From a virus: a DNA stretch of 23,186 nucleotides. The position numbers and the translations under genes were made by a program. The stretch is taken from IMG/VR virus record IMGVR_UViG_3300017743_002996, positions 1 to 23,186 of that record; one strand, written 5' to 3'. Position 1 is the stretch's first letter; each line of letters begins with the position of its first letter. Under the pieces are notes generated by a model. The model ran no database searches. It saw only the letters and a list, made by a program, of their open reading frames with translations, and was not told where the DNA came from. Below are positions 1 to 19,964 of the stretch, one piece after another.

Positions 1-3000
1 ACTGTCGAATTCGCCAAAGTCAAAGCCTAGATCTTTTTGCTTTCTACCTAGACTGATTAGGAAATCAAATACTTCCTCAACTGATTTAAAAATTGTATCG
101 TAATAAACTTTTTCTGTTACACCTGTTCCAGATTGATAAACTGTTGCTGATGCTCCACCTATTGTAGGCAATTGAGATAGCAACGTCCACTCGCTAAGAT
201 CAAATGCACTAGGTTGTAAATCAGTTTTTGCCATATAAAAACTGCCACCAAATTTGATAATTTCGTTTTGTAGGTAATTTGCGCCTGTATCAAAAATACT
301 AAAGTCAGCAGGATTACCGCCCTCTTGTACACCTTCTTTAGGACCTGCTAAATTACTTGGTATAATTTCAAAGTACTGTGAACTAGTATCATAACCTGAA
401 ACTGAATATCCGTTTGAGGTTTTTGCTATTTTAACACCAGTGTAGAAATTTCTACTGTTGAATGGACTTGTATGTAAATTAACTGTGACGTCTTCTGCAG
501 GTAAAACCTGACTAGCACTAAAACCATCAGTACTAATACTTTCACTGAATACTTTCAACACTTTACTATTAACAAATCCTGAGAACTTATGACCTAGTCT
601 GGTATCTAAAGTTTGAATTGGATTTGCTATTTCAGTGTTAGTTGACAGTGAATAGAATTTTAAATACTGATCTATAAGTGTAGTATAACCCGGTCTAACT
701 GTAATATTATTATTAGAATCAATAAAACCATGTGGCTTAAAGTCTTGCCTTAATTTTCTTTTACCTGTATTTTTATCTACAAGTTGTTCTGGTTGTACAC
801 TAACCTTAGAAATGTTTCTAAGATCATAAAAATTATTTGTGAACTCACCTGGCCTTGCTAAGTATAATGCTTCTAATACTGCAAAAGGATAGTAACTACT
901 TTTTCTCCAAGCATATTCTGCCGGCGATATATCACCAAATGACCACTGAGCATCTACACCTAATGTAGACGAAGTTGTATTGGTATACATTATGTCTTGC
1001 GGTGATTTTAAATTACCAGTTGCGTCAACTGGTATAAAACTGTTAATAGTTGGTCTTGCCCAACGTTTCCAATAACCTTTTCTACTTCCTGCAGGAATAT
1101 AACCGTCTCTAACATTATTCCAAAATGCTGTATAAGAACTTGTTATTGCGGTAGGATATTGAGTGTCCCACCAACTTGGTTTTTTGTTAAAGCCAAACAT
1201 TTCCCATGGTGTTGTATTAGGTGTTTGTGTATCATAATAATAATCAAACACTCCTCTCCAGTAACCTGGTTTAGTAACACCATTTTCATAATTCCATGTA
1301 AACTCATTTGATGCATCATACACCGTGTTTGTTCTAAAGTCTACATTACTTTGTTTTAACCATTTGTTAAAGTTACTTTGTGTAAGTTTGTTGAATTCAA
1401 CTAAACTAAAGTCTGTTTCACAAAAATAACTTGGCTTGATATCGTATTGCGATAACCTAATTGTATCACATGTTCTATATGTCTCATCTATGTTATTGTA
1501 AACTATCTGCTCAAATGCTAAAAGGATGTCATCAATTCTATCATTTTGCCTAATTACATAACTACCGTCATGACAAAGTATTACATCCTTATTTACTTGA
1601 TATGACTCGTCTGTCATAAATTGTGGCTGAGATGGCATGTACATACCTAACTTAGGTAAACTTACTGGTACACCAGATGATTCGCTATCTTCGTATGTTC
1701 GTAATTTTAATTTGTCGCCTACATTTAATGTAACACTATTGTCTAATGTAATATCAAAAGGCAGATAAGTGTCTATTGTAAAATCTCTATCAGCACAAAG
1801 TACGGTGTCATTATGCTCTAGTACAAATAAATTTTTATCCTCTGATATATCAATTGTATTACTAAATGTGTATTCTTGTAAATTAACATTGCTAATTTCA
1901 ATTTCTTCATTAGTAAAGTCTGTACCAATCGGCAACATGTATGTAAGGTTGTAACTGTCCTTAGACAGTTTTGTAGATTTTAATGTTTTTAATACTGTAT
2001 CTAAAATCTCTAAATTGCTTTCTTCTAAATAGTCGTTGTTCTGTAAATAAATTTCTAATGTTGTTAAAAACTTTCTTTTGAATTTATTATATTCGTCGTT
2101 AGCAAATCTTAAAGAATTTACAATATTTCTATTTTCATTTTTACTTAGATACATTGCATGTATTAGATCTGAATCTATTTGTCCCATATTAATATTATTA
2201 ATATTAAATGATCGTTCTGTATCTTTATAATTGTTATTTCCTGTTACTTTACCTGCAAATCCTTTTTGACCTTCTAATAGTCTATTACCATGACCGACTA
2301 AATCACTTAATCTTGTTTCTGTAATTTCTGTATTAAGTGGATTATATTTTAATGCACCTGGAATTTCAAAATAACCATATGCATCTATTCCATTTTTTCT
2401 ATCTTCTTTAGTAAACGTTCTGACATTAATAACGTCAGTGTCTGTTAAATTAACACTTTGTGTGAAACCAAAATCGAATGTTGCACCAATTCCGTGTCCG
2501 TCACCTGAAGCAGTAGTGTATACTGATTCAATGTTTCCTGGGTGTCCAACTAATTCACTGTAGATACTATAATTTGTAACTTCTATAGTTTTAATTTGGC
2601 CTCCGCCATTACTGATGTTGCCATCGTATGCTTCGGCATCTGTAATTTTAATTGCAACATTGGTATTACTACCTGCAATGCCTAATGTTAAAACATCGCC
2701 TGTTTCGTATCCTATTCCTACTTCTCTTAATGTTACTGACTCTAATGTAGGATTAATTACAATACCTGTGGTACTGTTTCTAATAGCATAGTCTTTGTTA
2801 AGTTCCAGTACTGTATCATTTAATTTTACATACACATCATTGTTACTTGGCGTAGCACTTGTAGTAAAGAACACATCTTCGTCATTTATTTTATCAATGA
2901 GTATTACATCTTCTACATACTGCTTTGATGTTGTAGCATGTGCATCTTCGTAAAATTTAAAATTGCTTATGTCAAAATTGCCGGCACTTATATTTGTGTT

Positions 3001-5073
3001 AGCAACAAAATACTGATTTTCGTACTTAACAACTTCATCAGCAAAATATGTTTCTGCATTACTAAAATCTCTGTAATGATGAGGGGCACTTATTGGATGC
3101 CAGTTGTTTCTAAATCTTGCATTATCATTACCTTTATAATCCTGTTGTAAATCTTTATAAAATAAGTAACCAGATATTGTTGAAGTATTTGCTAAAATAT
3201 TTGCCTTATATGTTACTGTATGATTACCTAAATGGTTAAAGAATGTAGGCTCACTGTTAAACTTGCTTGTTTGATAAATTACGTTTGCACCTAATTCACT
3301 ATCATATGTTGCAGTCTTGCTACTAGTTTTGTCTGTATTATAAGTAAAAATAGGACAACCTTTAAAACTACTAAATGGATATTTTGCAGGATCGTCTACA
3401 TTTACTCCTACTGAGTCATATAGATTAAATAACGGCTCCTGATTGACTTGTATTTTCTGTTGTGCTTCTTGCCATTTAGAGCCTGTCCAATAATAATCAA
3501 GGCCAATGTTTGTACCTGTTACACTATACACATGACCGTTTGTTACAATATTTGCAGTCATGCCTGAGTCTTCAGCAAACCCTATCAGGCCACTGTTATT
3601 AACTATTCTATAAATCTTGTTAGATATATCTGTTTCATCTTGTGGGAAAATAATACTTGCATTCGCTGTTGCCGCCGCACTATTAATCGGAAAGCCTAAT
3701 GCTAATCCTTCTATGTCTTCTTTCTTTTTATCTGCAATAATATCGACTTTGCTTATAAAAGTATTACCCCAATTATATAATTCTATGTCTCTATCAAATT
3801 CTAAGATAGGTCTTGTTGCTCTTTTAGCCGATTCTGGTAATGCAAATCCAGATGTATTATCTTTAAGTGGTTCACGTAATTCGTTTACATGCCACCAGTA
3901 ATTTAATCTACTCCATGGGTTTTCGTTTTTTGCACCTCTTTCAATTGTAATATAATCTGCATTGTCTTGTGTTGTTTCTGAACTCCATGGTGTGGCGTCC
4001 CAACCTTTTTCTGTATCAATATTAAATTGTATGTTTGGATTAATGTATTCATTGTGAAAATCATCAATTGCAAAGTTGTGAGATGCCATTACTCCATCTG
4101 GCAAATAAAATGTATTGCCGGGAATAGTTGCTAAATTTAAATAAATTACATTACCTGTTCTTTGTGCATTATTACCTAAGTATCTAACATTATTTGATGA
4201 AGCATCACCTACTGATAATTCTTGACCGTTCAAGTACATTCTTGAAATTGCATCATTGTTAGATTTATTTTTAGTTGCAATATCTCTCCAAACTTGAGTA
4301 AAGTCTCCGCCTGGTGAAACTACAAAGTCTCCTGGTAAATTGCTGTTTGCATAGTATTCTACTAATGCTGACTGAGTATATGTAGATTCATTTGATTGTT
4401 CAAATGTAAAATCGTTAAACTCTGCATAAGCAGATGTTGAATCACCTGGTACTACAAATTCTATTCCTTCACCTACACCAGTAACAATATATGCTGTATC
4501 TTCTTTTAATACACTGGTATTAGCAATATAGTTGCCTGTAAATTTAACAACCATGTCGTTTCTTAATGTAGTGCCTGCAGGCGATGTGTAAGTTTTTAAT
4601 CCAACAATGTTATCTATATTAATAACATTACCTAACTTACCACCGACTTCTGTTACTTCTGGTCCTGTTGGGTACCAATAGTAATCCTGGTAATTTATTA
4701 ATTTGTCAATGTTTACAGGCGGTGCGTATGCATACTGATTTGTCTTAAACAGTCTGTTATGATTTTCAATCAATCCGCCTTTACTTCTTAAATCGTATAA
4801 AAAGTCTTCGTAGAATGTGTAATTTTCTGGTTTACCAGTTGTTGAATTTAGTGTGGTAACCACAGGGTCAAAACTGTAGTATTCTCTATTTGGTGCTGGT
4901 TGCTCAATGAACGTAGTGTTACTAGAGCCTATCTCTCTTGGAGTTCCAATAAAACCTTGAATATTCTCTACGTTTGACTTAGAAAATAATTGCTCGACTG
5001 TGCTTTCAAAGAAATTTTTATTAACACTAGTCTGGTGCTGTATCGGTAATAAATCAAAATATTTGTTTGTCAT
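1..5073 (-). CDS. Giant virion structural protein, partial (C-terminus off the left edge)
   Basis: The frame is open from an ATG at 5073 to base 1, giving 1691 residues with no stop, so the 3' end lies outside the window. The start overlaps the gp6 stop (TAATG), and a GGAAGTGGA purine stretch just upstream can serve as ribosome binding site. The protein begins MTNKYFDLLPIQHQTSVNK and soon has an aromatic-rich stretch (YQDYYWYP). It is rich in Asn, Thr, Tyr and Trp, with no signal peptide or transmembrane segment seen. Near the left edge it reads SVEEVFDFLISLGRKQ. This composition and its place directly after gp25 and gp6 fit a very large baseplate or tail protein. I recall similar long N-termini in giant structural proteins of marine and alphaproteobacterial myoviruses, but that is memory, not a search. 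It may do the job of T4 gp7 or gp10; I cannot assign either by sequence. Structural role: fairly sure. Exact identity: unknown. Confidence 0.75.
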   Translation of the reverse strand, partial: MTNKYFDLLPIQHQTSVNKNFFESTVEQLFSKSNVENIQGFIGTPREIGSSNTTFIEQPAPNREYYSFDPVVTTLNSTTGKPENYTFYEDFLYDLRSKGGLIENHNRLFKTNQYAYAPPVNIDKLINYQDYYWYPTGPEVTEVGGKLGNVINIDNIVGLKTYTSPAGTTLRNDMVVKFTGNYIANTSVLKEDTAYIVTGVGEGIEFVVPGDSTSAYAEFNDFTFEQSNESTYTQSALVEYYANSNLPGDFVVSPGGDFTQVWRDIATKNKSNNDAISRMYLNGQELSVGDASSNNVRYLGNNAQRTGNVIYLNLATIPGNTFYLPDGVMASHNFAIDDFHNEYINPNIQFNIDTEKGWDATPWSSETTQDNADYITIERGAKNENPWSRLNYWWHVNELREPLKDNTSGFALPESAKRATRPILEFDRDIELYNWGNTFISKVDIIADKKKEDIEGLALGFPINSAAATANASIIFPQDETDISNKIYRIVNNSGLIGFAEDSGMTANIVTNGHVYSVTGTNIGLDYYWTGSKWQEAQQKIQVNQEPLFNLYDSVGVNVDDPAKYPFSSFKGCPIFTYNTDKTSSKTATYDSELGANVIYQTSKFNSEPTFFNHLGNHTVTYKANILANTSTISGYLFYKDLQQDYKGNDNARFRNNWHPISAPHHYRDFSNAETYFADEVVKYENQYFVANTNISAGNFDISNFKFYEDAHATTSKQYVEDVILIDKINDEDVFFTTSATPSNNDVYVKLNDTVLELNKDYAIRNSTTGIVINPTLESVTLREVGIGYETGDVLTLGIAGSNTNVAIKITDAEAYDGNISNGGGQIKTIEVTNYSIYSELVGHPGNIESVYTTASGDGHGIGATFDFGFTQSVNLTDTDVINVRTFTKEDRKNGIDAYGYFEIPGALKYNPLNTEITETRLSDLVGHGNRLLEGQKGFAGKVTGNNNYKDTERSFNINNINMGQIDSDLIHAMYLSKNENRNIVNSLRFANDEYNKFKRKFLTTLEIYLQNNDYLEESNLEILDTVLKTLKSTKLSKDSYNLTYMLPIGTDFTNEEIEISNVNLQEYTFSNTIDISEDKNLFVLEHNDTVLCADRDFTIDTYLPFDITLDNSVTLNVGDKLKLRTYEDSESSGVPVSLPKLGMYMPSQPQFMTDESYQVNKDVILCHDGSYVIRQNDRIDDILLAFEQIVYNNIDETYRTCDTIRLSQYDIKPSYFCETDFSLVEFNKLTQSNFNKWLKQSNVDFRTNTVYDASNEFTWNYENGVTKPGYWRGVFDYYYDTQTPNTTPWEMFGFNKKPSWWDTQYPTAITSSYTAFWNNVRDGYIPAGSRKGYWKRWARPTINSFIPVDATGNLKSPQDIMYTNTTSSTLGVDAQWSFGDISPAEYAWRKSSYYPFAVLEALYLARPGEFTNNFYDLRNISKVSVQPEQLVDKNTGKRKLRQDFKPHGFIDSNNNITVRPGYTTLIDQYLKFYSLSTNTEIANPIQTLDTRLGHKFSGFVNSKVLKVFSESISTDGFSASQVLPAEDVTVNLHTSPFNSRNFYTGVKIAKTSNGYSVSGYDTSSQYFEIIPSNLAGPKEGVQEGGNPADFSIFDTGANYLQNEIIKFGGSFYMAKTDLQPSAFDLSEWTLLSQLPTIGGASATVYQSGTGVTEKVYYDTIFKSVEEVFDFLISLGRKQKDLGFDFGEFDS

Positions 5074-8000
5074 TAGTATCCACTTCCGCCTGAACCACTG
5101 CTACCGCTACTACTACTGCCACTACTACTGCTACTGCTACTGCTACTGCTACTTGATGCAGATGATCTAGTAATTGCGTTACCTTTTATTTGTTTTAAAT
5201 TTGTTGCTGATAAACTTTTTACAACTTCGACATTGTCTACTGTTGCAGTTGAAAAGAATAATTCATCTGATGCCGCTCTAACTTGATATAAATCTCCAAA
5301 TATAGATTCTGATTTCTTAGGAACAATAACAACTGATGCTACTGCTTTACCTAACTCTTGGTGAATATATGCACTGAGTTCTGAAAAATAAAATGTTTCT
5401 CCAAAGTCCCAATTTTGTACATTAAAATACTGGTCAATAAGTTGTAGGACAGCACTTCTGATTTCTGCATCACTTGTTACACTACCTGGTAACTTGACAA
5501 CTTTAATTGTTGCTTGTAATTCTTCTTCTGCGTCGGCGCCAAATAATAATTTAAATTTACCACTGCTGTAAACTAGTTGATCACTAACACTCTTAAATTC
5601 ATCTAGTCCTGCAAATTCTTGTGCAAGTTGTTCTGACGTTGGTGCTTTTGGTAGAACTGATGTTCCGCCATTTTTATAACTTAACATTGATTGGTAATGT
5701 GCCTTTGTAAGCATAAACATTTCTACAACATTACTAATACTTGGATCTATTCTAACATCACTTGGTGCAATATGTTGCCACTCAAATGCACACTTTCTAG
5801 GATTTTCCTGCAATGTGTTTTGTTCAAAACTTCTTCCAACTTTTACGTTATATTGATTATTTTCAGTTAGCACAATCATTTTAGGTGTTGTGATATCATT
5901 AATTAATTCATATACTTTAGGCAATAATGATCTTGGGAATACTAACTTGTGATTAAGTTTACCTAAATTATTTCTTAAATGTGCTTCTGCTACACTCAGA
6001 TCTTTTACAATAATTAAATCAAAGTCTGTAAATGCAGTCTTATTATCTGGGTCACTGCCTGGAGCAACTGTATCTAAAACATAATCAACTTTGATTTCTG
6101 TTTCAGTTGCAAAGTTTAAAATTTTAAATTTAGCAGGCCTGTCATATGTGTAGCCGTCTAAATCCGTATACTGCTCAAAGAATACAAAATCTGTGCTACC
6201 AACAAATTTATCAAATAGGTCTGGATCATCTGGGAAGCCATCGTAATCTGTATCAATTGGCTTGACAACAACTTTTGCCGGATCGGCAAAACCGTCACTG
6301 TATCTATATGAGTCAACTATTTCAAACTGTATTGGTTTGTCTAAAGACTCTTTAACATTTTTATAAACTATTTGCATTTTATCTGCATGTTTAAATCCGT
6401 TCCATCTGCTAGATAAACTATCAAAGTCAGAAACTTTTATACTTGAATCTGATAGTAAATCAATAAATCCTTCATTTGCAGTATCGCCTACTTCAAATGT
6501 TGTGGTTGTTGCATTACCAGTATAAGTTTTATAACTTGCAGAACCCACATCATAATTTACATAAGCAAGGTTTCCATTAGCACCGCCAACAACTGATGTG
6601 CCAAACTTTGATAGCGGTATAGTTATACTGCTTGGTAATGCTGATAATTTTGCACTATTTAATTTAACAACTGCTTTACCAGTTGTTGCAGATACTGGAT
6701 CAACTGCTATTGTTGTTGATATTGCTGGTGCAAAATCACCTTGACTGTAATCTGCAGAATTTGATACTCCTGTTTCTCCATTTAATAGTAAACCAAAGTT
6801 ACTGACAAATCTTACTTCTAAGTCTTTTGCTTTTGCATCTCTGCTTCTTAAAATAATTTCTGGACTGTTGCCCACATTAGGTGTATAGGTTGCATTAGTT
6901 GATTCTAATTGCCAACTGTCACCAATGTCATCTAAATTTGTATCTACCCAATTATATGTTTCAATTAATTCTGGCTTGAAGTTTGCAGTTGTTAATGATA
7001 TTGTGTCTTTTAGCACCCTACCAGTTTTACTATCAAATGTTTTTTCATCGCCTGAAAAATAAAATTTTATGTCTTTTAAACTTTCGAATACTAGTCTTGT
7101 ACCTCTAGAGGTTACAGTATAATTAGAAATGTTAGATGTGCTGGTTGTACTATTGTATTCAAACTTCATTAACCAACTAGCACCATTTGTAATATCTGGA
7201 TTAAAGTCTGCATTTCTATCTAATGCAGAATTATCAATGATGTACCAATGTGTTCCGTTAGACGAACCTGGCTTATGATTATATCCAATTCCAAAATCTT
7301 CTTTTGCATCGATTCTATTCTTAAATGCTGTGCCTATATCGTTTTCCAGTAATGCTGTATTAAGTGTTGGAATAATTTCAACTGCTCTATAGGCGTTTGG
7401 TATTTCTTTGTTTAGTTTAATTACACCTTCTGTGACACTTAATAAATTTGTAGGTATACCACTATTTTCAATACTTGTGATAGTTGCTAATTCTTCTTGT
7501 GTTGGGTCGCTTGGATTTCTAAATTTAATATAAGATCCTGGCTGAATAATTCTATTATCGTTTGAACTATTATTAAGTACTGTTCTTGTACCACCTTCCA
7601 TTCTAGTGAAATACCCTGTGTTATTTTTATTTTTACTTGGTTGCGTTACCCATGTTATGTCTTTATTATTAGATGTTAAGTCAAATGCCAATGCATCAAT
7701 ACTCATATTTAATTTTCTATAATCATCGTAAACAAAGTTTTGTAAATTTGTATCTTTAGTAATATTTGCAACATCCTCTTTTAGAATTTGTATTGTGGTT
7801 TTACTAGTACCAAATGTTAAATATGTTGCTTTATTTTCTATGTCCTTGTATAATGCTCCATCGTCTGCAAACGAAGTAACACTACTAAATCTTCCTGTAG
7901 GATCTTCGATGTCTATATATCTACTATGTCCTGCATGAGTTCTGTTTGTTGCTTTTAGTTTTAATATGTTTACACTTTGACTTAATGGAAAAACATTATA

Positions 8001-9200: not shown

Positions 9201-9299
9201 AGTGCTGAAATCATATGCCTTAAAACTTACTTTGGTATATGCCTGATAGGCTACTTCCCAATCTTCAGCGGCGAATAAATTTTGATTTCTTGTACTAAT
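9201..9299 (-). other. Probable N-terminal extension of gp6 lacking ATG/GTG/TTG
   Basis: Directly upstream of the gp6 ATG at 9200 the frame stays open and reads like protein: it contains NLFAAEDWEVAYQAY and then SFKAYDFSTMRTAML, which runs into the conserved part. The open stretch goes back to a TGA just upstream of 9310. It has no ATG, GTG, TTG or CTG. The only initiator-like codons are ATT at 9299 (giving ISTRNQNLFAAEDW) and an ATA three codons earlier. This region overlaps the 3' end of gp25 by 49 nt. Likely readings are a rare ATT start, a frameshift from gp25, or a sequence error. The pattern resembles the N-terminus I expect of gp6 homologues, but I could not align it. Confidence 0.5.
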
Positions 9300-9676
9300 T
9301 GCCCGTATCCATCTCTCTCAAATTCTCTTTCTAACCTCATCTCTAATACATCTTTGCTTTGGTCTACCTTGTACTGTAAATATAATTCTACTTTAAGCAA
9401 ATGATCTGTATTTTCAATATTTGTTGCAAGTAAGTCTACTCTAGGATCGTTTTCTACTATCTCTTTGCACTCGTCTTCTATATCTTGCTTTGTTAGATTG
9501 TCAAATGGCTCCATTAGGATATCATGTATAATGCTACCAAAGTTTGGTCGCATAACTCTTTCGCCTTTTCTAGTTAAGAAATGATTTAATAAGTCTTGCT
9601 TAACTAAATCTAAATCTGTTAGAGTATAAGGCGGTTTTTGCTTGTTATCTGTACTAAATCCAATAAATGTTGCCAT
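9251..9676 (-). CDS. 25: Baseplate wedge protein gp25
   Basis: This 141-residue protein matches the gp25/GpW lysozyme-like baseplate family in length (T4 gp25 is 132). It has the family pattern: an N-terminal LVKQDLLNHFLTRKGERVMRP segment, FGSIIHDILMEPFD, a helix ending with NDPRVDL, and a final beta region (VELYLQYKV). In contractile injection systems gp25 is the conserved core of the wedge that contacts gp6 and the sheath; despite the historical name it is not a lysozyme. It is followed by gp6, with which it overlaps if the longer gp6 start is real. No Shine-Dalgarno sequence is visible before the ATG; instead a GATAAATA late-promoter-like box ends 5 nt upstream (9682-9689), so the mRNA could be leaderless. 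Identification is confident. Confidence 0.93.
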   Translation of the reverse strand: MATFIGFSTDNKQKPPYTLTDLDLVKQDLLNHFLTRKGERVMRPNFGSIIHDILMEPFDNLTKQDIEDECKEIVENDPRVDLLATNIENTDHLLKVELYLQYKVDQSKDVLEMRLEREFERDGYGQLVQEIKIYSPLKIGK

Positions 9677-9681
9677 ACAAG

Positions 9682-9689
9682 TATTTATC
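9682..9689 (-). promoter_or_regulatory. T4-type late promoter box GATAAATA before gp25
   Basis: On the minus strand the sequence is TGATAAATACTTGT followed by the gp25 ATG. GATAAATA differs from the T4 late consensus TATAAATA at one position, and the same 8-mer occurs before two other minus-strand transcription units. It lies only 5 nt from the start codon, so transcription would begin at or next to the ATG. Confidence 0.6.
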
Positions 9690-9734: not shown

Positions 9735-9755
9735 TTAGGCTTTGCCTAATTTTTT
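9735..9755 (+). terminator. Short hairpin plus T-run (plus-strand orientation)
   Basis: On the plus strand TTAGGC, a TTT loop and GCCTAA form a perfect 6-bp stem, followed by six T. This has terminator form, but it points rightward and overlaps the last codons of the leftward 199-residue gene. It could stop antisense transcription. The stem is short, and the Lys/Leu/Gly/Ala codons at that C-terminus may produce it by chance. Confidence 0.3.
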
Positions 9756-10334
9756 AGCCAATGAGTTGAATGTTGCTATTTGAACATCTTTGGACATATT
9801 ACTTGTAGCATTATCAACTTTTGCAAGAACTTGAGGATCATCAGTGGCGCCTGGCATTCCTTTTGGTGTACTCGAACCAGTATTTGTTGTTTGAATTTGA
9901 CTCTGTGCTAATGCTAGATATATACTGGAAATTTGGCCTTTGTCAGCAATTTTTGCCGGATCGGCTTCTGAGGAGTTTTTCCAACTAGCCGAAATAGCAC
10001 CTTTAAACTTAAGATCAGGTATAAGTTCTAAAAACTCTGGGTCTGTTAATTGAGGCTTTAATTTTGCAGATGTGGCCATAAAGTCTTTAAATAATTCTAT
10101 ATTCAATATTACTGGATTTTCATTAGGATGACTTACTGCTAACCATTTTGTATATGCTGTAGAAATAGAATTGGCTCCTTTCATTGCTTGAGCCTTTACG
10201 TCCCCTTGGATAGCCGCTTTGGCGGCACCTCTACTGATCTTGCCAGCAAATCTCTGTGCACCGGTTTTTATATTCTGCATACCTTGTGCAACACTACCAA
10301 ATTCTACTTCATTAATGACTTCGTCGATTCTCAT
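9735..10334 (-). CDS. Hypothetical protein, 199 residues, in the baseplate block
   Basis: I do not recognise this protein. It starts MRIDEVINEVEFG, has a basic, Ala/Gly-rich segment around residues 25-55 (AGKISRGAAKAAIQGDVKAQ), a central region with several prolines and charged residues, a Thr/Ser/Gly/Pro-rich linker around 150-165, and a helical Lys-rich end. No signal peptide, membrane segment or cysteine was seen. The start has a good ribosome binding site (AGGAG, 6 nt upstream) and a late-promoter-like box at 10352-10359. It is the first gene of the unit that continues to gp25, gp6 and the giant protein, so a virion or assembly role is a reasonable inference. Phages of this group often carry small proteins beginning with a similar MRI-E-I stretch, but I cannot name a family. 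Confidence 0.75.
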   Translation of the reverse strand: MRIDEVINEVEFGSVAQGMQNIKTGAQRFAGKISRGAAKAAIQGDVKAQAMKGANSISTAYTKWLAVSHPNENPVILNIELFKDFMATSAKLKPQLTDPEFLELIPDLKFKGAISASWKNSSEADPAKIADKGQISSIYLALAQSQIQTTNTGSSTPKGMPGATDDPQVLAKVDNATSNMSKDVQIATFNSLAKKLGKA

Positions 10335-10351
10335 TTATATCTCCTGCCAGT

Positions 10352-10359
10352 TATTTATC
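10352..10359 (-). promoter_or_regulatory. T4-type late promoter box GATAAATA before the 199-residue gene
   Basis: The minus strand reads AGATAAATAACTGGCAGGAG, then the start ATG. The 8-mer is identical to those before gp25 and the tail-tube-cap-like gene, and is 17 nt from the start codon with the ribosome binding site between, a normal layout for a T4 late promoter. Confidence 0.6.
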
Positions 10360-10374
10360 TCTTTTCTTATATCA

Positions 10375-10382
10375 ATTAAATA
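10375..10382 (+). promoter_or_regulatory. Weak late-promoter-like box before the nucleosidase
   Basis: ATTAAATA shares the TAAATA core of the minus-strand boxes (6 of 8 with TATAAATA). It lies 31 nt before the start at 10414, with the ribosome binding site AGAGGAA (10404-10410) between. No convincing -35/-10 pair was found in this 79-bp divergent gap. In an AT-rich genome this match is weak evidence. Confidence 0.25.
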
Positions 10383-10413
10383 ATTACATGTACAACTATC
10401 ATTAGAGGAAATT

Positions 10414-10959
10414 ATGAAATATGTTTTAGCAGTTGCACTGGCAGACGAATTAGAAGGAATGCAAGGCAACTATAACACAATTATTACAGGTGTTGGTAAA
10501 ATCAATGCCGCACTTAAACTTGCAGAGTATTTGGCAAATAATCCAGATACTGAATTAGTAATCAACTACGGTACAGCAGGTGGTATTGACCCTGATATGA
10601 AGGGCATGTTGCACATTGGTAAATTTGTACAAGCAGATATGGATTGTAGAGCATTCGGCTTTGATCAATATCAAACACCGTTTGAAACAAATACACATGA
10701 AATAATCATTGACAACAAAGGCTTTACATGTTATACTCAAGATAAGTTTGCTACAACTAAACCTGAAGGTTATTGTAATGTAGTTGACATGGAGGCTTAT
10801 GCACTTGCAAAAGTGTGTATGCATTTTGGCGTAGACTTCAAATGTTTGAAGTTTATAAGCGATATAATCGGACAAGGAGATCAGACATCTGATTGGGAGG
10901 CTAATAAGGCTCTAGGTGTTGAGATGTTCGAGTCCACTTTAAAGGATTTAATAAAATAA
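10414..10959 (+). CDS. mtnN: MTA/SAH nucleosidase-like (PNP/UDP phosphorylase family), compact
   Basis: The family cleaves adenine from 5'-methylthioadenosine and S-adenosylhomocysteine, clearing inhibitory by-products of SAM use and feeding methionine salvage in the cytoplasm. Seen here: the N-terminal Glu12 in the same place as the general-acid Glu12 of E. coli MtnN; GVGKINAA (26-33); NYGTAGG (51-57, the ribose/base-binding loop); VVDMEAYALAKVC (123-135) with Met126-Glu127 matching the ribose-contacting Met-Glu pair; and FISD (147-150) with Asp150 matching catalytic Asp197. All key residues are present, although at 181 residues it is some 50 shorter than E. coli MtnN (232); the missing part lies in the middle, between the AFG segment and VVDME. 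The start has a clear AGAGGAA site. The receptor gene follows after 1 nt, so they are probably co-expressed. Substrate preference within the family cannot be told. Confidence 0.87.
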   Translation: MKYVLAVALADELEGMQGNYNTIITGVGKINAALKLAEYLANNPDTELVINYGTAGGIDPDMKGMLHIGKFVQADMDCRAFGFDQYQTPFETNTHEIIIDNKGFTCYTQDKFATTKPEGYCNVVDMEAYALAKVCMHFGVDFKCLKFISDIIGQGDQTSDWEANKALGVEMFESTLKDLIK

Positions 10960-10960
10960 A

Positions 10961-12958
10961 ATGAACGATTTTGATAAGAATTTTCACATTAACTTTAGTC
11001 CACTATATTTTGCATTTGCATTTATGGTGTTTATGCTTTGGGCAAGTGAGGCTAAAGCCAGCGATATAGAAGAAGTAGTTGTTGTAGGACAACAAGAAAA
11101 AACCATCGAAGCAGATCCTATTATTAATAGTAGGCTGATTGATTCCATTATGCCAGTGTTTACATATAACCCTGGAGGCTATGGTGGCTTTGTTGGTTAT
11201 AATGAACGTGGTGCTCAAACAGTACATACATCTGTTATAGTAAACGGCATACCTGCCAATGACCCAGGAGCAAGTTGGTATGACTTTGGTCATGACTTTG
11301 CTAGTGGGCAAACTGTAAAAGTTGTCAGCGGTGCTAACGGTGTATTATACGGCTCAGGCAGTATTGCAGGTACTGTACTAATACAAGACACTATAGAACG
11401 TGGCCTCACAGTTAGGGGCGGTGATCAAAAATTTATCAGAGTTGCACCCATTGAACAATTAGAGTTCAGCAAGATTGATAACAGTATGGTTAGTGCTAGA
11501 AACGACAACGACGAAGTTGATAATTATGTAAACTCTACTGCTAGATTTAATGTCAGTTTTGGTGACTTTAGCATTGTTGGAAAATATTCAGAGTACGAGT
11601 ACGACTATGATAACTGCTATGGTTATAGTTGGAATCAAAGTAATGACTGCTTACAAGATGGCACTAGATATAACATTGCTATTAGAAATGATTTAATGAC
11701 GATTGGTAGAAATTACAATACTGCTGATTACTTTACAGAACTAGATCCTACTTATAGCAACGAAAGTTATAGAGACTTTGTGAGGTTTGGCAGTGATGCT
11801 AAACTCAGCAATAAAATCACAGTTGCTTATGGTATTGATGCTGAAAAAATATATTACAATACAACCAGTTGGCAAAATGTTCAAGGCACCACAGTTGTAG
11901 AAACAGAAAGCACAGAGCCAGGTATATGGTATGCTGAGGACGACACAAACAAAAACAGGCCAATGTGGACTGGTATTTACATAGGCACTGGAGAGTTTAC
12001 TAGTGAAACTGTTGGTGACGGTGTGTTTACACTTACTGACATTAATCAAAAATACACAGACGAAAATGCTGGTGCATACTTTACTGTAAATGCTGACTTT
12101 GTTTTAAAATATAACTTCGGAATTAGAGTAGGAAATGACGACCAAAATGCGTTGCGTCTAGGTATAGAAAACGGTCCATGGTTCTTTAACATAGGCGACA
12201 GTTTTAGAAAGCCTAACTTATATGAAATAAACGGTGATGGATTTGTTTCAGGCAATCCAGACTTACTGCCCGAAGATGGTATAGGATACGAACTGGGTTA
12301 CGGTGCTATCAGTATTTTTAGATACGAATTCGAAGAATCAATTGAATATGTACCAGGTTACAATACTGATTTTACAACTACCACTATAGAATTAGATGCT
12401 GATGAAACATTCAATCAAATTGGTACAGATGATCAAGCACCAGACCCAACTTATGTTTCGTGTGTACTAGATACTAATTGGAACGATAACGACGAAGCAA
12501 CATTTGGTGTTCCTGGGTGTATATATAAAACTGTGTCTACAGTCAATCAAGTGTATACTGCTCCTACTTATAGTAACACAGGCGAGTATGTAACACAGGG
12601 TATTAGATATAATAATGTGTTTGGTCCTGTCACAGTAAATCTTAAATGGACTGACACTGAGCAACCACGTGTACCTGAGTATGCTGGTGCAGTAATATTG
12701 AATCAAAATTTCAAAGGCGTTGACTTTAGAGTACGTTATGCCGTAAACTTAAATCGTAAACCAGGCGAATGGGATTTTGTTGAAGACGAATACCTCGAAG
12801 ACTTAGAAAGACTGGATATTAATATTACTAAAAGGTTTGCAAATGGCGTAACACTTTCTTTAAACGTAGAAAATCTCACAGACGAAGTTGTTGAAGTAGT
12901 GCCGTTTTACAATAGCACACAAAGAGAAACAACACTAGTGATAGATTATAAATGGTAA
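10961..12958 (+). CDS. TonB-dependent outer-membrane receptor, full length
   Basis: This 665-residue protein has the complete layout of a TonB-dependent transporter. Residues 1-33 form a signal peptide (hydrophobic core about 13-29, AKA cleavage motif at 31-33). A TonB box (IEEVVVVG, 36-43) follows at once. The plug domain occupies about 50-150, with YNERGAQTVHTSVIVNGIPA and then SGANGVLYGSGSIAGTV. The rest is a barrel with alternating aromatic strands. A typical FRKPNLYEINGDG / GNPDLLPEDG segment lies around residues 410-435, and the C-terminus has the VENLTDE motif and ends in an aromatic residue (DYKW). Paired cysteines in likely outer loops may form disulfides. Such receptors import iron chelates, B12 or glycans using TonB energy; the ligand is not evident. 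It lies 1 nt after the nucleosidase gene, with AAAGGA 14 nt upstream. No frameshift or truncation is seen, and base composition matches its neighbours. Confidence 0.93.
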   Translation: MNDFDKNFHINFSPLYFAFAFMVFMLWASEAKASDIEEVVVVGQQEKTIEADPIINSRLIDSIMPVFTYNPGGYGGFVGYNERGAQTVHTSVIVNGIPANDPGASWYDFGHDFASGQTVKVVSGANGVLYGSGSIAGTVLIQDTIERGLTVRGGDQKFIRVAPIEQLEFSKIDNSMVSARNDNDEVDNYVNSTARFNVSFGDFSIVGKYSEYEYDYDNCYGYSWNQSNDCLQDGTRYNIAIRNDLMTIGRNYNTADYFTELDPTYSNESYRDFVRFGSDAKLSNKITVAYGIDAEKIYYNTTSWQNVQGTTVVETESTEPGIWYAEDDTNKNRPMWTGIYIGTGEFTSETVGDGVFTLTDINQKYTDENAGAYFTVNADFVLKYNFGIRVGNDDQNALRLGIENGPWFFNIGDSFRKPNLYEINGDGFVSGNPDLLPEDGIGYELGYGAISIFRYEFEESIEYVPGYNTDFTTTTIELDADETFNQIGTDDQAPDPTYVSCVLDTNWNDNDEATFGVPGCIYKTVSTVNQVYTAPTYSNTGEYVTQGIRYNNVFGPVTVNLKWTDTEQPRVPEYAGAVILNQNFKGVDFRVRYAVNLNRKPGEWDFVEDEYLEDLERLDINITKRFANGVTLSLNVENLTDEVVEVVPFYNSTQRETTLVIDYKW

Positions 12959-12995
12959 AAAATATCATATTTTGATTTCATAAAGCAAGTTTATT

Positions 12996-13003
12996 AGTAA
13001 ATA
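12996..13003 (+). promoter_or_regulatory. Weak late-promoter-like box before the 88-residue gene
   Basis: AGTAAATA, followed by C as in the box before gp25, is 31 nt before the start at 13035, the same distance as the weak box before the nucleosidase. The 76-bp gap holds also AGGA (about 13026) as ribosome binding site and an AT-only palindrome. Support is only motif similarity. Confidence 0.25.
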
Positions 13004-13034
13004 CAAGTGTATCATTTAACAACATAGGACCAAA

Positions 13035-13301
13035 ATGAAAACTGATAAAATTATTAAGAAGATTGTATCCACTTTTAAAGATCTAGAGGAGAAAGCCAGC
13101 CACATCAATTCAGCAAGTGGCAAGACAGTAATTCACTCTATGATACAACGAGATAAAAGAGGCAAATTTGATAGTTTAGGATTTTATAATGCTAAAACTA
13201 AAAAATATGCCTTGGTCTTTATAAGAGATTATATTGCAAGAAACGTGGAGGTTATCCCTGAACTGGATGATATGAAACGTGTTATTACTGTTAAAAAATG
13301 A
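13035..13301 (+). CDS. Hypothetical protein, 88 residues, basic
   Basis: Unknown. The protein starts MKTDKIIKKIVSTFKDLEEK and is Lys-rich. It has a likely helical N-terminus, then a part that looks like short beta strands (FDSLGFYNAKTKKYALVFI), and ends in basic residues. No cysteine, signal peptide or membrane segment was seen. AGGACC lies 7 nt before the ATG and is a fair ribosome binding site. Its stop overlaps the start of the next gene by 4 nt (ATGA), so the two are translationally coupled. It follows the receptor gene by 76 bp on the same strand. The coding call rests on length, ribosome binding site and the tight overlap with a neighbour, not on homology. Confidence 0.7.
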   Translation: MKTDKIIKKIVSTFKDLEEKASHINSASGKTVIHSMIQRDKRGKFDSLGFYNAKTKKYALVFIRDYIARNVEVIPELDDMKRVITVKK

Positions 13302-13504
13302 CCGACCACTTAACAAAAAAATTTACAAACAATACATTAGAAGAAGATTTAAGGATTATGCTCGTTGAAAAAAACAACGAGTGTAATGCTCTTAGAGAAG
13401 AAATTAAAATGCTTAAAAATAGTGTTGCTGAAGAGCAAGATGCAAAATACAGAGCGTATGTAAAAATTTCTGATTTACAAAGAGAATTAAATACTACTAA
13501 ATAG
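13298..13504 (+). CDS. Hypothetical small coiled-coil protein, 68 residues
   Basis: Unknown. From about residue 14 to the end it is one long charged helix with hydrophobic residues at heptad-like spacing (LEEDLRIMLVEKNNECNALR and on to ISDLQREL), so a dimeric coiled coil is likely. It starts by ATGA overlap inside the end of the 88-residue gene. Its stop lies inside the 3' end of the leftward lysozyme-like gene: the two convergent coding regions overlap by 18 nt, leaving no room for a terminator between them. No catalytic motif is seen. It could be a small adaptor or regulator, but nothing in the sequence shows this. Confidence 0.65.
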   Translation: MTDHLTKKFTNNTLEEDLRIMLVEKNNECNALREEIKMLKNSVAEEQDAKYRAYVKISDLQRELNTTK

Positions 13505-14305
13505 GTTAGCCTCTGCTACCCTTCTATCATACAAGGTAGTGCTGACTCCAGCACCATTTTTCAAAGGCTTTTCAGTAAACTCCATAAAAAAAGTTGCACA
13601 ATTATATTCGCCTGTGTTAAGAGACTTTATTAATTTACTAGAAGCAAATTTAGTTTTGCCTATATCATATGCTAATGAGACAAGTGCTATTGCTTGATTT
13701 TTATTTACAGGTACTTTGACTTTGTCTGTTACTATATCAAATGCTTGACGTACATCTACATTTACTAATCTTTCTATAAACTCTGGTTTAGCACCATTTA
13801 CTAAACTGTATAAATAAAAATCGTTTGTTTCGTCATAAACAGCAATTGAATTATTTGCCGCACCATAATCAACAATACCATTTTTAATTATTGATGTACC
13901 TTTTAAATATGCATGATTTTTTCTAATACTTTTTGCAACATCTGGATGGTCTATGTCTAATATTTCTGTGTTATTTAAAGCAACTAATAAATTGTTAACC
14001 TCGTTGGTTTTAAGTTTATGAGAAAAACCTATTAATATTTGATCATCCTTTACTGTAGGAACAATAAATGTTTCGTAATTTCTTTTTATAAATTGCAAAG
14101 CATCTCTAATAATATGTTCTGGACTTAAATTTAATGGTACAAAAAACTTTGGTACATTGCTTGTCTTAGGCACATATACACCTTCTTTGTAATCACTGCC
14201 TTGATATGACATGCCCATAAAATATGCATCCGGAGAGCAATAATCTAATGGTCTAGAAGCATCTGTTTCTAATTGTCCTTTGATTAATTTATCAACGTAT
14301 GCCAT
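13487..14305 (-). CDS. GH24 lysozyme-like protein, separate from gp5
   Basis: The C-terminal half matches T4-type (GH24) lysozymes: NVDVRQAFDIV, AIALVSLAYDIG, SSKLIKSLNTGEY and DRRVAEANLF follow the family order up to the RR..E..LF end. In the N-terminal part, Glu78 and Asp87 have the same 9-residue spacing as T4 Glu11 and Asp20, and IGFSH (92-96) matches IGIGH, if a 2-residue deletion is allowed between them. The third active-site residue, Thr26 in T4, is Leu here. The first 60 or so residues are not lysozyme and may anchor it to the hub. At 272 residues it is larger than T4 lysozyme (164). It begins by TAATG overlap with the gp5-like gene, whose T4 relative carries its lysozyme inside the chain. 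The likely role is local peptidoglycan digestion at the tail tip; activity is uncertain. Confidence 0.75.
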   Translation of the reverse strand: MAYVDKLIKGQLETDASRPLDYCSPDAYFMGMSYQGSDYKEGVYVPKTSNVPKFFVPLNLSPEHIIRDALQFIKRNYETFIVPTVKDDQILIGFSHKLKTNEVNNLLVALNNTEILDIDHPDVAKSIRKNHAYLKGTSIIKNGIVDYGAANNSIAVYDETNDFYLYSLVNGAKPEFIERLVNVDVRQAFDIVTDKVKVPVNKNQAIALVSLAYDIGKTKFASSKLIKSLNTGEYNCATFFMEFTEKPLKNGAGVSTTLYDRRVAEANLFSSI

Positions 14306-15918
14306 TACTTGTTAGTCCTAGATGGACTAGGTTCGACACCTGGCCATCTTGTAATAATTGTTTCAACTTTTTGATCATATAACAACAAAGGTGTCAGAGG
14401 ACTCTTTCCTTGTTCTGCACGTTTTGGATAACCGCCACTAAGTATACCTTGTAATTCAAACGACAATAATGTATTTGTTGTTTTACTTGTTTTAATACCA
14501 CTCATATTAGGTACAATTGGCAAAGGTGGTAAAGCCGGTAATAAAGTTGTTTGAATATCAACTGTATCACCTGCATTTATAAACGTTTTTGTTGTGCCCA
14601 TAATATGTGTATGAGTTGTTGCAAATAAATCTATATCGCCCATTGACTTGATTTGTAATGTAGGTACGGACGGTGGATTGTTTACTGATACTGGTGCGGC
14701 TATTTCTACTTGTGTGCCTGCCATATGTACCTTGTTATCACCAAATAATTGTAAACTACCGGGTGTAGTTTTGCCGTCTACTGTAAACAGCCTTGGTCTT
14801 GCTTCAATGCTAATAGCATTAGAATACATGTTGATATCTTTTACACCTTCAATGTTTACACTACCTTCAGTGAGTTTACTTTGATATACTGGATTCACGT
14901 ATGCTAATTCTTGATTGTCTACAACACCTTTTTCTGATTCGTTAATATCATTAGGGTGTGGATAATTATTTGCGGCTTTGATATTAACATTCTGTCCTGC
15001 TTCAATATTTACATTTTTATCACCACGTAGATTTAAATCACCCGATGTTCTAACATTAAAACTTGACGTACCATAAATGTCTATATTTCCTGCTGAATCT
15101 ATTTCTATATGCCCAGAGCCACTTTTGTTAGAAATGTAAATTAAATTTTCAGCATCATTTAAAACTATTTGATTTCCGCCTCCAGTACGAATCCTAATAT
15201 GTGGATTATCATTATTGTCATCTAGTACGAACTGATGTCCGGAAAATCTCTGTGCTGGATTGTTTGGTTTCTTTGCACCAGGTGTTAATATACCATACAC
15301 TTCACTTGCACCTTCTCGCCTTGCTCCACTTGTACTCTGGCCTCTAATAAAATCGTTGATTAGTCCTTGTGCAAATATTGTGCTTTCTAATTCGTGTGCA
15401 GGTCTATTCTCTGCTTTTACGTCTACGTTCTTTACAGTACCCGAGTATTCCACATTATGATTTTTTATGTTGGCTCGCATATTTGCTTCTCTTACAGGTG
15501 TAACTCCACCTATGGATTTACCTGCAGGAATGCCTGGCACCATAAAGTTTCTTTGCGTTTGAAACATACAACCAAGTACTATGGGAGTCATACTACCATT
15601 ACTGTTGAAAAATCCAACTACAACTTGGTTACCTGGATCTGGTGGTCTCATCCATAGGCCATAACTGGTTTGCGAAGCCTCTGGAGAGTTTGGATCTGAT
15701 GATATGTTATCTGGTGTTGCTCCAGCAAATGGTGACGTCCATATACATTGAAATAACGAGTCTGCTGATGGTTCTGGTCCAGTTAGTTCGGGTATGTGTA
15801 CCCATAACAATCCGTTACGTGATGGATCGTCTGCTGATGTTATTGTTCCAATGTAGACCGAAGAAGTGGAATTTCCTAATTTTTGTTCTACTTGTTTTCT
15901 GTATTGACGTGGTATCAT
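14305..15918 (-). CDS. 5: gp5-like baseplate hub / tail spike without internal lysozyme
   Basis: The N-terminal 115 residues or so form a gp5/VgrG-type OB-fold: VYIGTITSADDPSRNGLLWV, then YGLWMRPPDPGNQVVVGF and PIVLGCMFQTQRNFMVPG. From about residue 225 there are repeated short strands typical of a trimeric beta-helix needle (IVLNDAENLIYISNKSGSGH, IDSAGNIDIYG, GDLNLRGDKNVNIEAGQNVN). The family forms the central hub and membrane-piercing spike under the tail tube. T4 gp5 (575 residues) has a lysozyme domain between the OB-fold and the helix; it is absent here and the next gene supplies one. The C-terminus ends in a Pro-rich stretch (RWPGVEPSPSRTNK) of the type seen at the end of cyanophage gp5 proteins, as I recall them. 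A strong AGAGGAG site precedes the ATG. Confidence 0.9.
   Translation of the reverse strand: MIPRQYRKQVEQKLGNSTSSVYIGTITSADDPSRNGLLWVHIPELTGPEPSADSLFQCIWTSPFAGATPDNISSDPNSPEASQTSYGLWMRPPDPGNQVVVGFFNSNGSMTPIVLGCMFQTQRNFMVPGIPAGKSIGGVTPVREANMRANIKNHNVEYSGTVKNVDVKAENRPAHELESTIFAQGLINDFIRGQSTSGARREGASEVYGILTPGAKKPNNPAQRFSGHQFVLDDNNDNPHIRIRTGGGNQIVLNDAENLIYISNKSGSGHIEIDSAGNIDIYGTSSFNVRTSGDLNLRGDKNVNIEAGQNVNIKAANNYPHPNDINESEKGVVDNQELAYVNPVYQSKLTEGSVNIEGVKDINMYSNAISIEARPRLFTVDGKTTPGSLQLFGDNKVHMAGTQVEIAAPVSVNNPPSVPTLQIKSMGDIDLFATTHTHIMGTTKTFINAGDTVDIQTTLLPALPPLPIVPNMSGIKTSKTTNTLLSFELQGILSGGYPKRAEQGKSPLTPLLLYDQKVETIITRWPGVEPSPSRTNK
14313..14329 (-). promoter_or_regulatory. Hairpin over the ribosome binding site of the lysozyme gene
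   Basis: In the mRNA, TAGTCC, a 5-nt loop and GGACTA form a perfect 6-bp stem just before the lysozyme start. The right arm contains the only Shine-Dalgarno-like sequence (AGGAC), 10 nt from the ATG. The stem would hide the site unless ribosomes finishing gp5 open it, so translation is probably coupled to gp5. This is inferred from sequence only. Confidence 0.4.
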
Positions 15919-19956: not shown

Positions 19957-19964
19957 TATTTATC
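19957..19964 (-). promoter_or_regulatory. T4-type late promoter box GATAAATA before the tail operon
   Basis: The minus strand reads CGATAAATACATAG, then AGGAGAA and the ATG at 19935. The 9-mer GATAAATAC is identical to that before gp25. It sits 21 nt from the start codon with the ribosome binding site between, which is the expected arrangement. It lies in the same 127-bp gap as the sigma-70 promoter that faces the other way. Confidence 0.65.

Follow-up and report, generated by a model that had tools for sequence, protein, structure and literature searches.

A complete gene for a TonB-dependent receptor was found between the baseplate genes of a jumbo phage of the T4-like group in the 23,186 nucleotides of DNA analysed here (the window), which make up a 23-kb virus fragment from IMG/VR. 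The receptor belongs to an old, phage-only family with hundreds of members, and its nearest characterised relative is BtuB, ahead of FepA, FhuA, FecA, CirA and PqqU. We see an even chance that it works as a TonB-dependent transporter of the BtuB type, takes up a cobamide and is made early in infection. A preliminary description of the window had reported a complete receptor in an uninterrupted gene with phage baseplate genes on both sides, and had named FhuA, BtuB and FepA for comparison. Leader, TonB box, plug, modelled barrel and phage flanks were all recovered in our annotation (Table 1).

The ORF begins with ATG, contains zero internal stops and starts one base past the co-directional nucleosidase gene. 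Its hydrophobic leader, MNDFDKNFHINFSPLYFAFAFMVFMLWASEAKA, was read from the sequence and is a predicted export signal, with the protein predicted to reside in the outer membrane. Directly after the leader lies the motif DIEEVVVV with the core IEEVVVV, a TonB box as in TonB-dependent transporters, through which the receptor is predicted to contact TonB. The Pfam Plug domain was found in all 76 receptor family members and scores 30.2 bits in the window receptor against a cut-off of 23.9, although its N-terminal part is shorter than the Pfam profile, the match starting at profile position 32. The C-terminus is aromatic. Only two of the 76 members are matched by the Pfam barrel profile PF00593 and the window receptor has no match, so that the assignment of the barrel depends on the structure model.

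An AlphaFold2 model of the window receptor built with 76 phage sequences (pLDDT 84.1, pTM 0.76) contains both a plug and a barrel, and supersedes an earlier, poor model from 23 sequences (pLDDT 69). Each strand has its partner among the 22 strands of BtuB in the alignment, and the modelled fold is thereby the plug within a 22-strand barrel that is expected of a TonB-dependent transporter and that the preliminary description had anticipated. A Foldseek search against the PDB gave 199 matches at E<=0.001, and all 50 of those listed are TonB-dependent transporters. Among the matches listed, the highest target-normalised TM-score belongs to BtuB (0.71), whereas the iron receptors PirA/PfeA are marginally ahead of BtuB by E-value.

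The conserved parts of the 76 members are the TonB box, the plug and the outer loops b3/b4 and b5/b6, and the conservation of these two loops equals that of the plug. Two other long outer loops were found in fewer than half of the members. A cysteine pair in loop b5/b6 (C219 and C230, window positions 11615-11650) is invariant in 76/76 members and also occurs in the nearest cellular relative (L342); the two residues likely form a disulfide.

Table 1. Features of the receptor gene and its surroundings, in window positions.
Feature	Position	Strand	Remarks
Baseplate wedge gp6, 1375 aa	5073..9200	-	Flanking phage gene
Baseplate wedge gp25	9251..9676	-	Flanking phage gene
Flanking ORF, 199 aa	9735..10334	-	Fast-diverging
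Nucleosidase gene, phosphorylase superfamily (PNP_UDP_1)	10414..10959	+	Order kept in 11/11 readable close relatives
Sigma-70-like promoter match, TTGACA-17-TATACT	10709..10737	+	Inside nucleosidase gene; kept in relatives
TonB-dependent receptor gene, 665 aa	10961..12958	+	BtuB-like; phage-only family
Leader, residues 1-33	10961..11059	+	Signal-peptide-like, ASEAKA at end; from sequence; model helix 6-26
TonB-box region, residues 34-45 (SDIEEVVVVGQQ)	11060..11095	+	E37 and V41 invariant in 76/76
Plug domain, about residues 51-146	11111..11398	+	Pfam Plug at residues 64-138
22-strand beta-barrel, residues 147-665	11399..12955	+	C-terminal YKW; AlphaFold2, Foldseek, BtuB alignment
Outer loop b3/b4, residues 177-190	11489..11530	+	Invariant D182, N183, E185, D187; aligned with BtuB L2 (D193/D195)
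Outer loop b5/b6, residues 212-234	11594..11662	+	Invariant Y214, D217, C219, C230; aligned with BtuB L3 (Y229, D230)
Small ORF, 88 aa	13035..13301	+	Co-directional; conserved together with the cassette
Small ORF, 68 aa	13298..13504	+	Conserved
Lysozyme-domain protein	13487..14305	-	Flanking phage gene
Baseplate hub gp5	14305..15918	-	Flanking phage gene

The receptor is flanked by gp6, gp25 and the 199-aa ORF on one side and by the lysozyme gene and gp5 on the other. The window phage belongs to the T4-like jumbo group, as its PHROGs include gp6, gp25, gp5, gp53, the late sigma factor and gp46/47 of the T4-like set, and its gp6 is closest to those of the jumbo T4-like phages PA5oct, Atu_ph07 and SCTP-2. 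The names gp17, uvsX and uvsW used for these phages are putative assignments from sequence alone. The same gene order was observed in all 11 close relatives that were readable, which come from other metagenomes, and the window is therefore not a chimeric assembly. The interval between gp5/lysozyme and gp25 is likely a cargo hotspot. In more distant phages (L400-L410), other small genes in the opposite orientation occupy the interval corresponding to window positions 9735-13504.

Several other features of these genomes were noted. The C-terminal end of the window gp6 (5073-5180, minus strand) is a low-complexity Ser/Gly tail (SSSSSSSSSSSSGSSSSGSSGSGGSGY). A virion ORF is truncated at the left end of the window (1-5073); it reaches about 7,000 aa in relatives, with full-length counterparts of 7,041 and 7,091 aa (L002 contig, G001, 50105-71230). 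A cluster of radical-SAM/SPASM proteins, related ORFs and a carbamoyltransferase occurs in close relatives (L099, G001:20001-40000) and is possibly a locus for peptide or glycan modification.

Peptide patterns of the window protein matched 43 loci in viral contigs, and a two-motif scan of IMG/VR derived from the alignment raised this to 227 relatives. When the matching pattern scan was run on 84,980 species genomes of bacteria and archaea, it returned zero relatives and thus no cellular donor of the receptor. A profile of the 76-member family scores the phage proteins at 583-910 bits. In about 700 Pseudomonadota genomes, this profile gave distant hits, mostly to the plug only, with a best score of 70 bits, and the nearest cellular protein (G441, L342:1288-3129) reached 91 bits as a whole protein. 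All phage receptors form one fully supported group in the tree, separated from BtuB and the nearest cellular protein by a long stem. The database search and the tree, both of which had been proposed as checks in the preliminary description, thus place the receptor in a phage clade. The window protein had no tblastn match among 50,697 named phage records. In BFVD, a single viral TonB-dependent receptor was found with confidence, which is of the SusC type and comes from an uncultured marine phage, and the only phage TonB-dependent receptor that we found in the literature is the SusC-type one of Mar_Mega_1. Within a major family of outer-membrane proteins, the phage receptors form a branch of their own that is nearly absent from current phage catalogues.

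Two genomic sites were observed for the receptor. In 68 of the 78 contigs with readable upstream sequence, its neighbours are an AAA ATPase ORF and uvsW; in the remaining ten, these two genes are joined directly and no plug domain was found elsewhere in the contig. In the window sub-lineage, receptor and nucleosidase occur together at the baseplate site (11/11 readable contigs). One contig of 339,794 bases (G014) links the uvsW-site context to baseplate, sigma and gp46/47 genes of the window type, arranged in the order seen in the window; its receptor is located at the uvsW site, and its baseplate site is empty of receptor. Together with the baseplate-site receptors of the sub-lineage, this indicates that the cassette occupies two different places in related phages. 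The idea of a gene common to two unrelated phage groups was dropped, since this contig shows both contexts in related jumbo phages.

The dN/dS values of 14 close receptor pairs range from 0.08 to 0.30, and the receptor is therefore under purifying selection. With these values, and with virion or replication genes as its neighbours in many independent contigs, the gene is a putative auxiliary metabolic gene, of host type but linked to phage genes and maintained. The baseplate-site receptor alleles differ at dS 1.5-1.7, compared to 0.2-0.7 for the adjacent nucleosidase and small ORFs, and they fall in three places in the tree; both observations indicate that the receptor is exchanged as an allele. 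A single clade of window sub-lineage receptors was rejected by the AU test (p 2e-42).

A sigma-70-type promoter (TTGACA/T-16/18-TATAAT, 11-12 of 12 positions) is found at or just upstream of the receptor start in 51 copies among 70 non-redundant loci outside the window sub-lineage, compared to 1.1% in a shuffled-sequence control. Terminator-like hairpins precede the promoter in several receptor loci, and together these elements suggest that the receptor is in most cases transcribed as a separate unit of the early type. In the window, the closest promoter match to the receptor is the one inside the nucleosidase gene, whose conservation may reflect only the coding constraint of that gene. Judging from the early-type promoter, the receptor would be expressed during infection. 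A scan of the window for the T4 late-promoter motif gave matches no commoner than chance. The T4-late-promoter-like sequence GATAAATA occurs at 9682-9689, 10352-10359 and 19957-19964 on the minus strand, just upstream of gp25, the 199-aa ORF and a 248-aa virion gene, and is absent upstream of the receptor cassette. Within the receptor family, three or more leader types are used interchangeably. A leader typical of the receptors, MNDFDKNFHINMSPLYATFLFMLL..., is also fused to a cell-wall hydrolase (Pfam Hydrolase_2; L043:8001-8558) and may represent a phage-specific export leader common to unrelated exported proteins.

The ligand of the receptor was approached through its likeness to BtuB, in which the ligand is bound by loops L2-L5 and calcium is coordinated close to the pocket by five aspartates (PMC7360065). 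At E<=0.01, the family profile (A2) matched only BtuB chains in the PDB (4e-18, profile positions 65-549 of 550). Its scores with E. coli receptors were 68 bits for BtuB, 14 for CirA, 10 for PqqU, 6 for FepA, 2 for FhuA and 1 for FecA. The NCBIfam family TonB-B12 matched 61 of the 76 members (best 3.7e-21) and did better than the heme families; the window receptor itself had no NCBIfam hit. Scores against the BtuB equivalog were far too low, with 39 bits for L309 compared to a cut-off of 599.7, and for this reason we describe the receptor as BtuB-like and do not file it as BtuB, with cobamide binding as a prediction.

The cage aspartates in L2 and L3 of E. coli BtuB, which we take to be D179, D193, D195, D230 and D241, may be retained in part. 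BtuB residues D195, Y229, D230 and R497 correspond to D187, Y216, D217 and R570 of the phage receptor, which are kept in 75-76 of the 76 members, R497/R570 not being counted as strong evidence because it may be a general barrel motif. BtuB D193 aligns with D182 in one alignment and with E185 in another, both residues being invariant, and D179 and D241 have no clean counterpart.

A gene for SAM synthetase (metK), an APRT-like enzyme or a nucleosidase lies within 6 kb of the receptor in 43 of the 44 contigs with enough downstream sequence. The window nucleosidase is nearest to the NCBIfam PRK05634 nucleosidase and to MTA/SAH nucleosidases, with scores below the cut-offs. All three contigs longer than 200 kb, which represent two lineages, encode a radical-SAM protein of the B12-dependent type: a B12-binding protein in G014 and G015 and a homologue in G013. 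This protein is nearest to KedN5 methylcobalamin-dependent C-methyltransferases (220 and 144 bits compared to a cut-off of 700), and its B12-binding domain is above the Pfam cut-off in one lineage. No such enzyme was found in the contigs of the window sub-lineage, which reach only about 93 kb. Radical-SAM enzymes of the methylcobalamin-dependent C-methyltransferase type release SAH and 5'-deoxyadenosine, both of which are substrates of MTA/SAH nucleosidases. A class II (B12-dependent) ribonucleotide reductase was excluded as a B12 need, as an NrdA-sized protein is followed by an NrdB-like one. A host name was also sought from the MetK of a relative, whose nearest sequences are from marine Alphaproteobacteria at about 50%, which is too weak for the purpose.

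Phage linkage, fold, conserved motifs, purifying selection, the early-type promoter, the gene neighbourhood and the nearest relative were established by computation. We infer expression, membrane insertion, a cobamide ligand and a benefit to the phage, which could be connected as follows. Early in infection, the receptor would be expressed from a promoter of the host sigma-70 type, exported and inserted in the host outer membrane, where the host TonB-ExbB-ExbD would power the uptake of vitamin B12 or a related cobamide by the infected cell. Both the B12-dependent methionine synthase of the host and the B12-type radical-SAM enzyme of the phage would be supplied with the cofactor in this way. 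SAM synthetase, nucleosidase and the adenine-phosphoribosyltransferase-like enzyme would serve the same cycle, with the nucleosidase acting on SAH, 5'-methylthioadenosine or 5'-deoxyadenosine. The fullest form of this proposal, in which ocean phages own an ancient virus-only B12 receptor that is used early via host TonB and fuels a phage SAM cycle and B12-dependent radical-SAM methylation, is tentative and somewhat doubtful as a whole.

The preliminary description considered that the sequence favoured none of its three ideas, namely nutrient uptake, superinfection control and a link to iron in the phage tail. This was too cautious, as the invariant residues of the TonB box, plug and ligand loops, the low dN/dS and the usual host-type promoter favour nutrient uptake; iron in the tail gains no support, a ferritin in some of the phages being the sole hint of iron. 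The motifs, selection and promoter would equally fit a phage TonB-dependent transporter for heme, a siderophore or another scarce compound, a reading that we consider unlikely but far from negligible. Heme-receptor profiles match 54 of the 76 members (best 2.9e-11), PirA/PfeA narrowly come first among the Foldseek matches listed, and the identity to BtuB is low. Genes for a ferritin-like protein occur in three lineages of receptor phages (L112:11040-11480, with Pfam Ferritin at E 3e-16; G014:144452-144886), which hints at iron instead of cobamide, and the ribonucleotide reductase of the receptor phages is of the class I, iron-type kind and not B12-dependent. However, iron and heme receptors are absent from the PDB profile hits or score near zero, both acidic loops of the BtuB type are invariant, and SAM-cycle genes and the B12-type radical-SAM enzyme are found in the same phages.

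The close linkage of SAM-cycle genes also speaks against superinfection control, by which the receptor would be a decoy or replacement for a host receptor that competing phages or toxins of the colicin kind exploit. Receptors of the BtuB type are well known as entry points of phages, the early-type promoter is in line with this reading, and rapid allele swapping at a fixed site along with variable long outer loops would suit an arms race. Yet the TonB box and the ligand cage, which a decoy would not need, are the most conserved parts, two of the outer loops are conserved and not variable, and the dN/dS values show no excess of amino-acid change; we therefore hold this explanation to be improbable. 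Such receptors are typical of cells and a single contig could mislead, which might suggest a recent chance capture of a host gene, or a chimeric assembly, without function for the phage. This is scarcely credible and we regard it as refuted by the over 200 related genes on viral contigs compared to zero in the 84,980 species genomes, the single phage clade with its long stem, the same locus in 68/78 and 11/11 contigs, and the purifying selection; long reads are not needed for its rejection.

To our knowledge, nearly all phage genes that boost metabolism encode small carriers or enzymes of the cytoplasm. A near-constant gene for an entire TonB-dependent receptor points to phages that alter the uptake of the infected cell from seawater, and suggests that large ocean phages upgrade its nutrient intake. 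Vitamin B12 is limiting and traded in seawater, and if the cobamide transporter reading is true, infected cells would be stronger B12 scavengers than uninfected ones. The direct question that follows is whether infection leads to higher cobamide uptake. As BtuB-type receptors are doors for other phages and toxins, the gene may also change who enters the infected cell.

The phage receptor shares with E. coli BtuB (TIGR01779 / PRK10641) the plug, the 22-strand barrel, the TonB box, an alignment that extends from the plug to the C-terminus, the acidic residues in the loops equivalent to L2 and L3, and the equivalent of R497. It differs in being phage-encoded, at about 14% identity and far below the equivalog cut-off, and in having a shorter plug in which the contact N72 is replaced by glutamine (Q86). 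No cobalamin riboswitch was found in the receptor phages, and the C219-C230 pair, invariant in the phage family, is missing from E. coli BtuB. The cellular BtuB-like receptor of G441 (Pseudomonadota) shares the loop motifs EDDGY and YDNC...NDC with the phage receptors, but is cellular, has a full-length plug and lies well outside the score range of the phage members. The SusC receptor A0A8D9FQQ5, judged from its name and source to be the protein of the marine megaphage Mar_Mega_1, is likewise a TonB-dependent receptor encoded by a very large marine phage and matches the fold of the window receptor (E 8e-15, TM-score 0.50, 11% identity), whereas it is of the SusC type, has 805 aa and forms a separate family, for which carbohydrate uptake has been suggested (PMC9723777). 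Finally, a weak match between the plug of the window receptor (residues 83-141 only) and the 760-position profile of PHROG 5687 (E 5.7e-6) indicates that at least one further receptor-like family exists among phage proteins.
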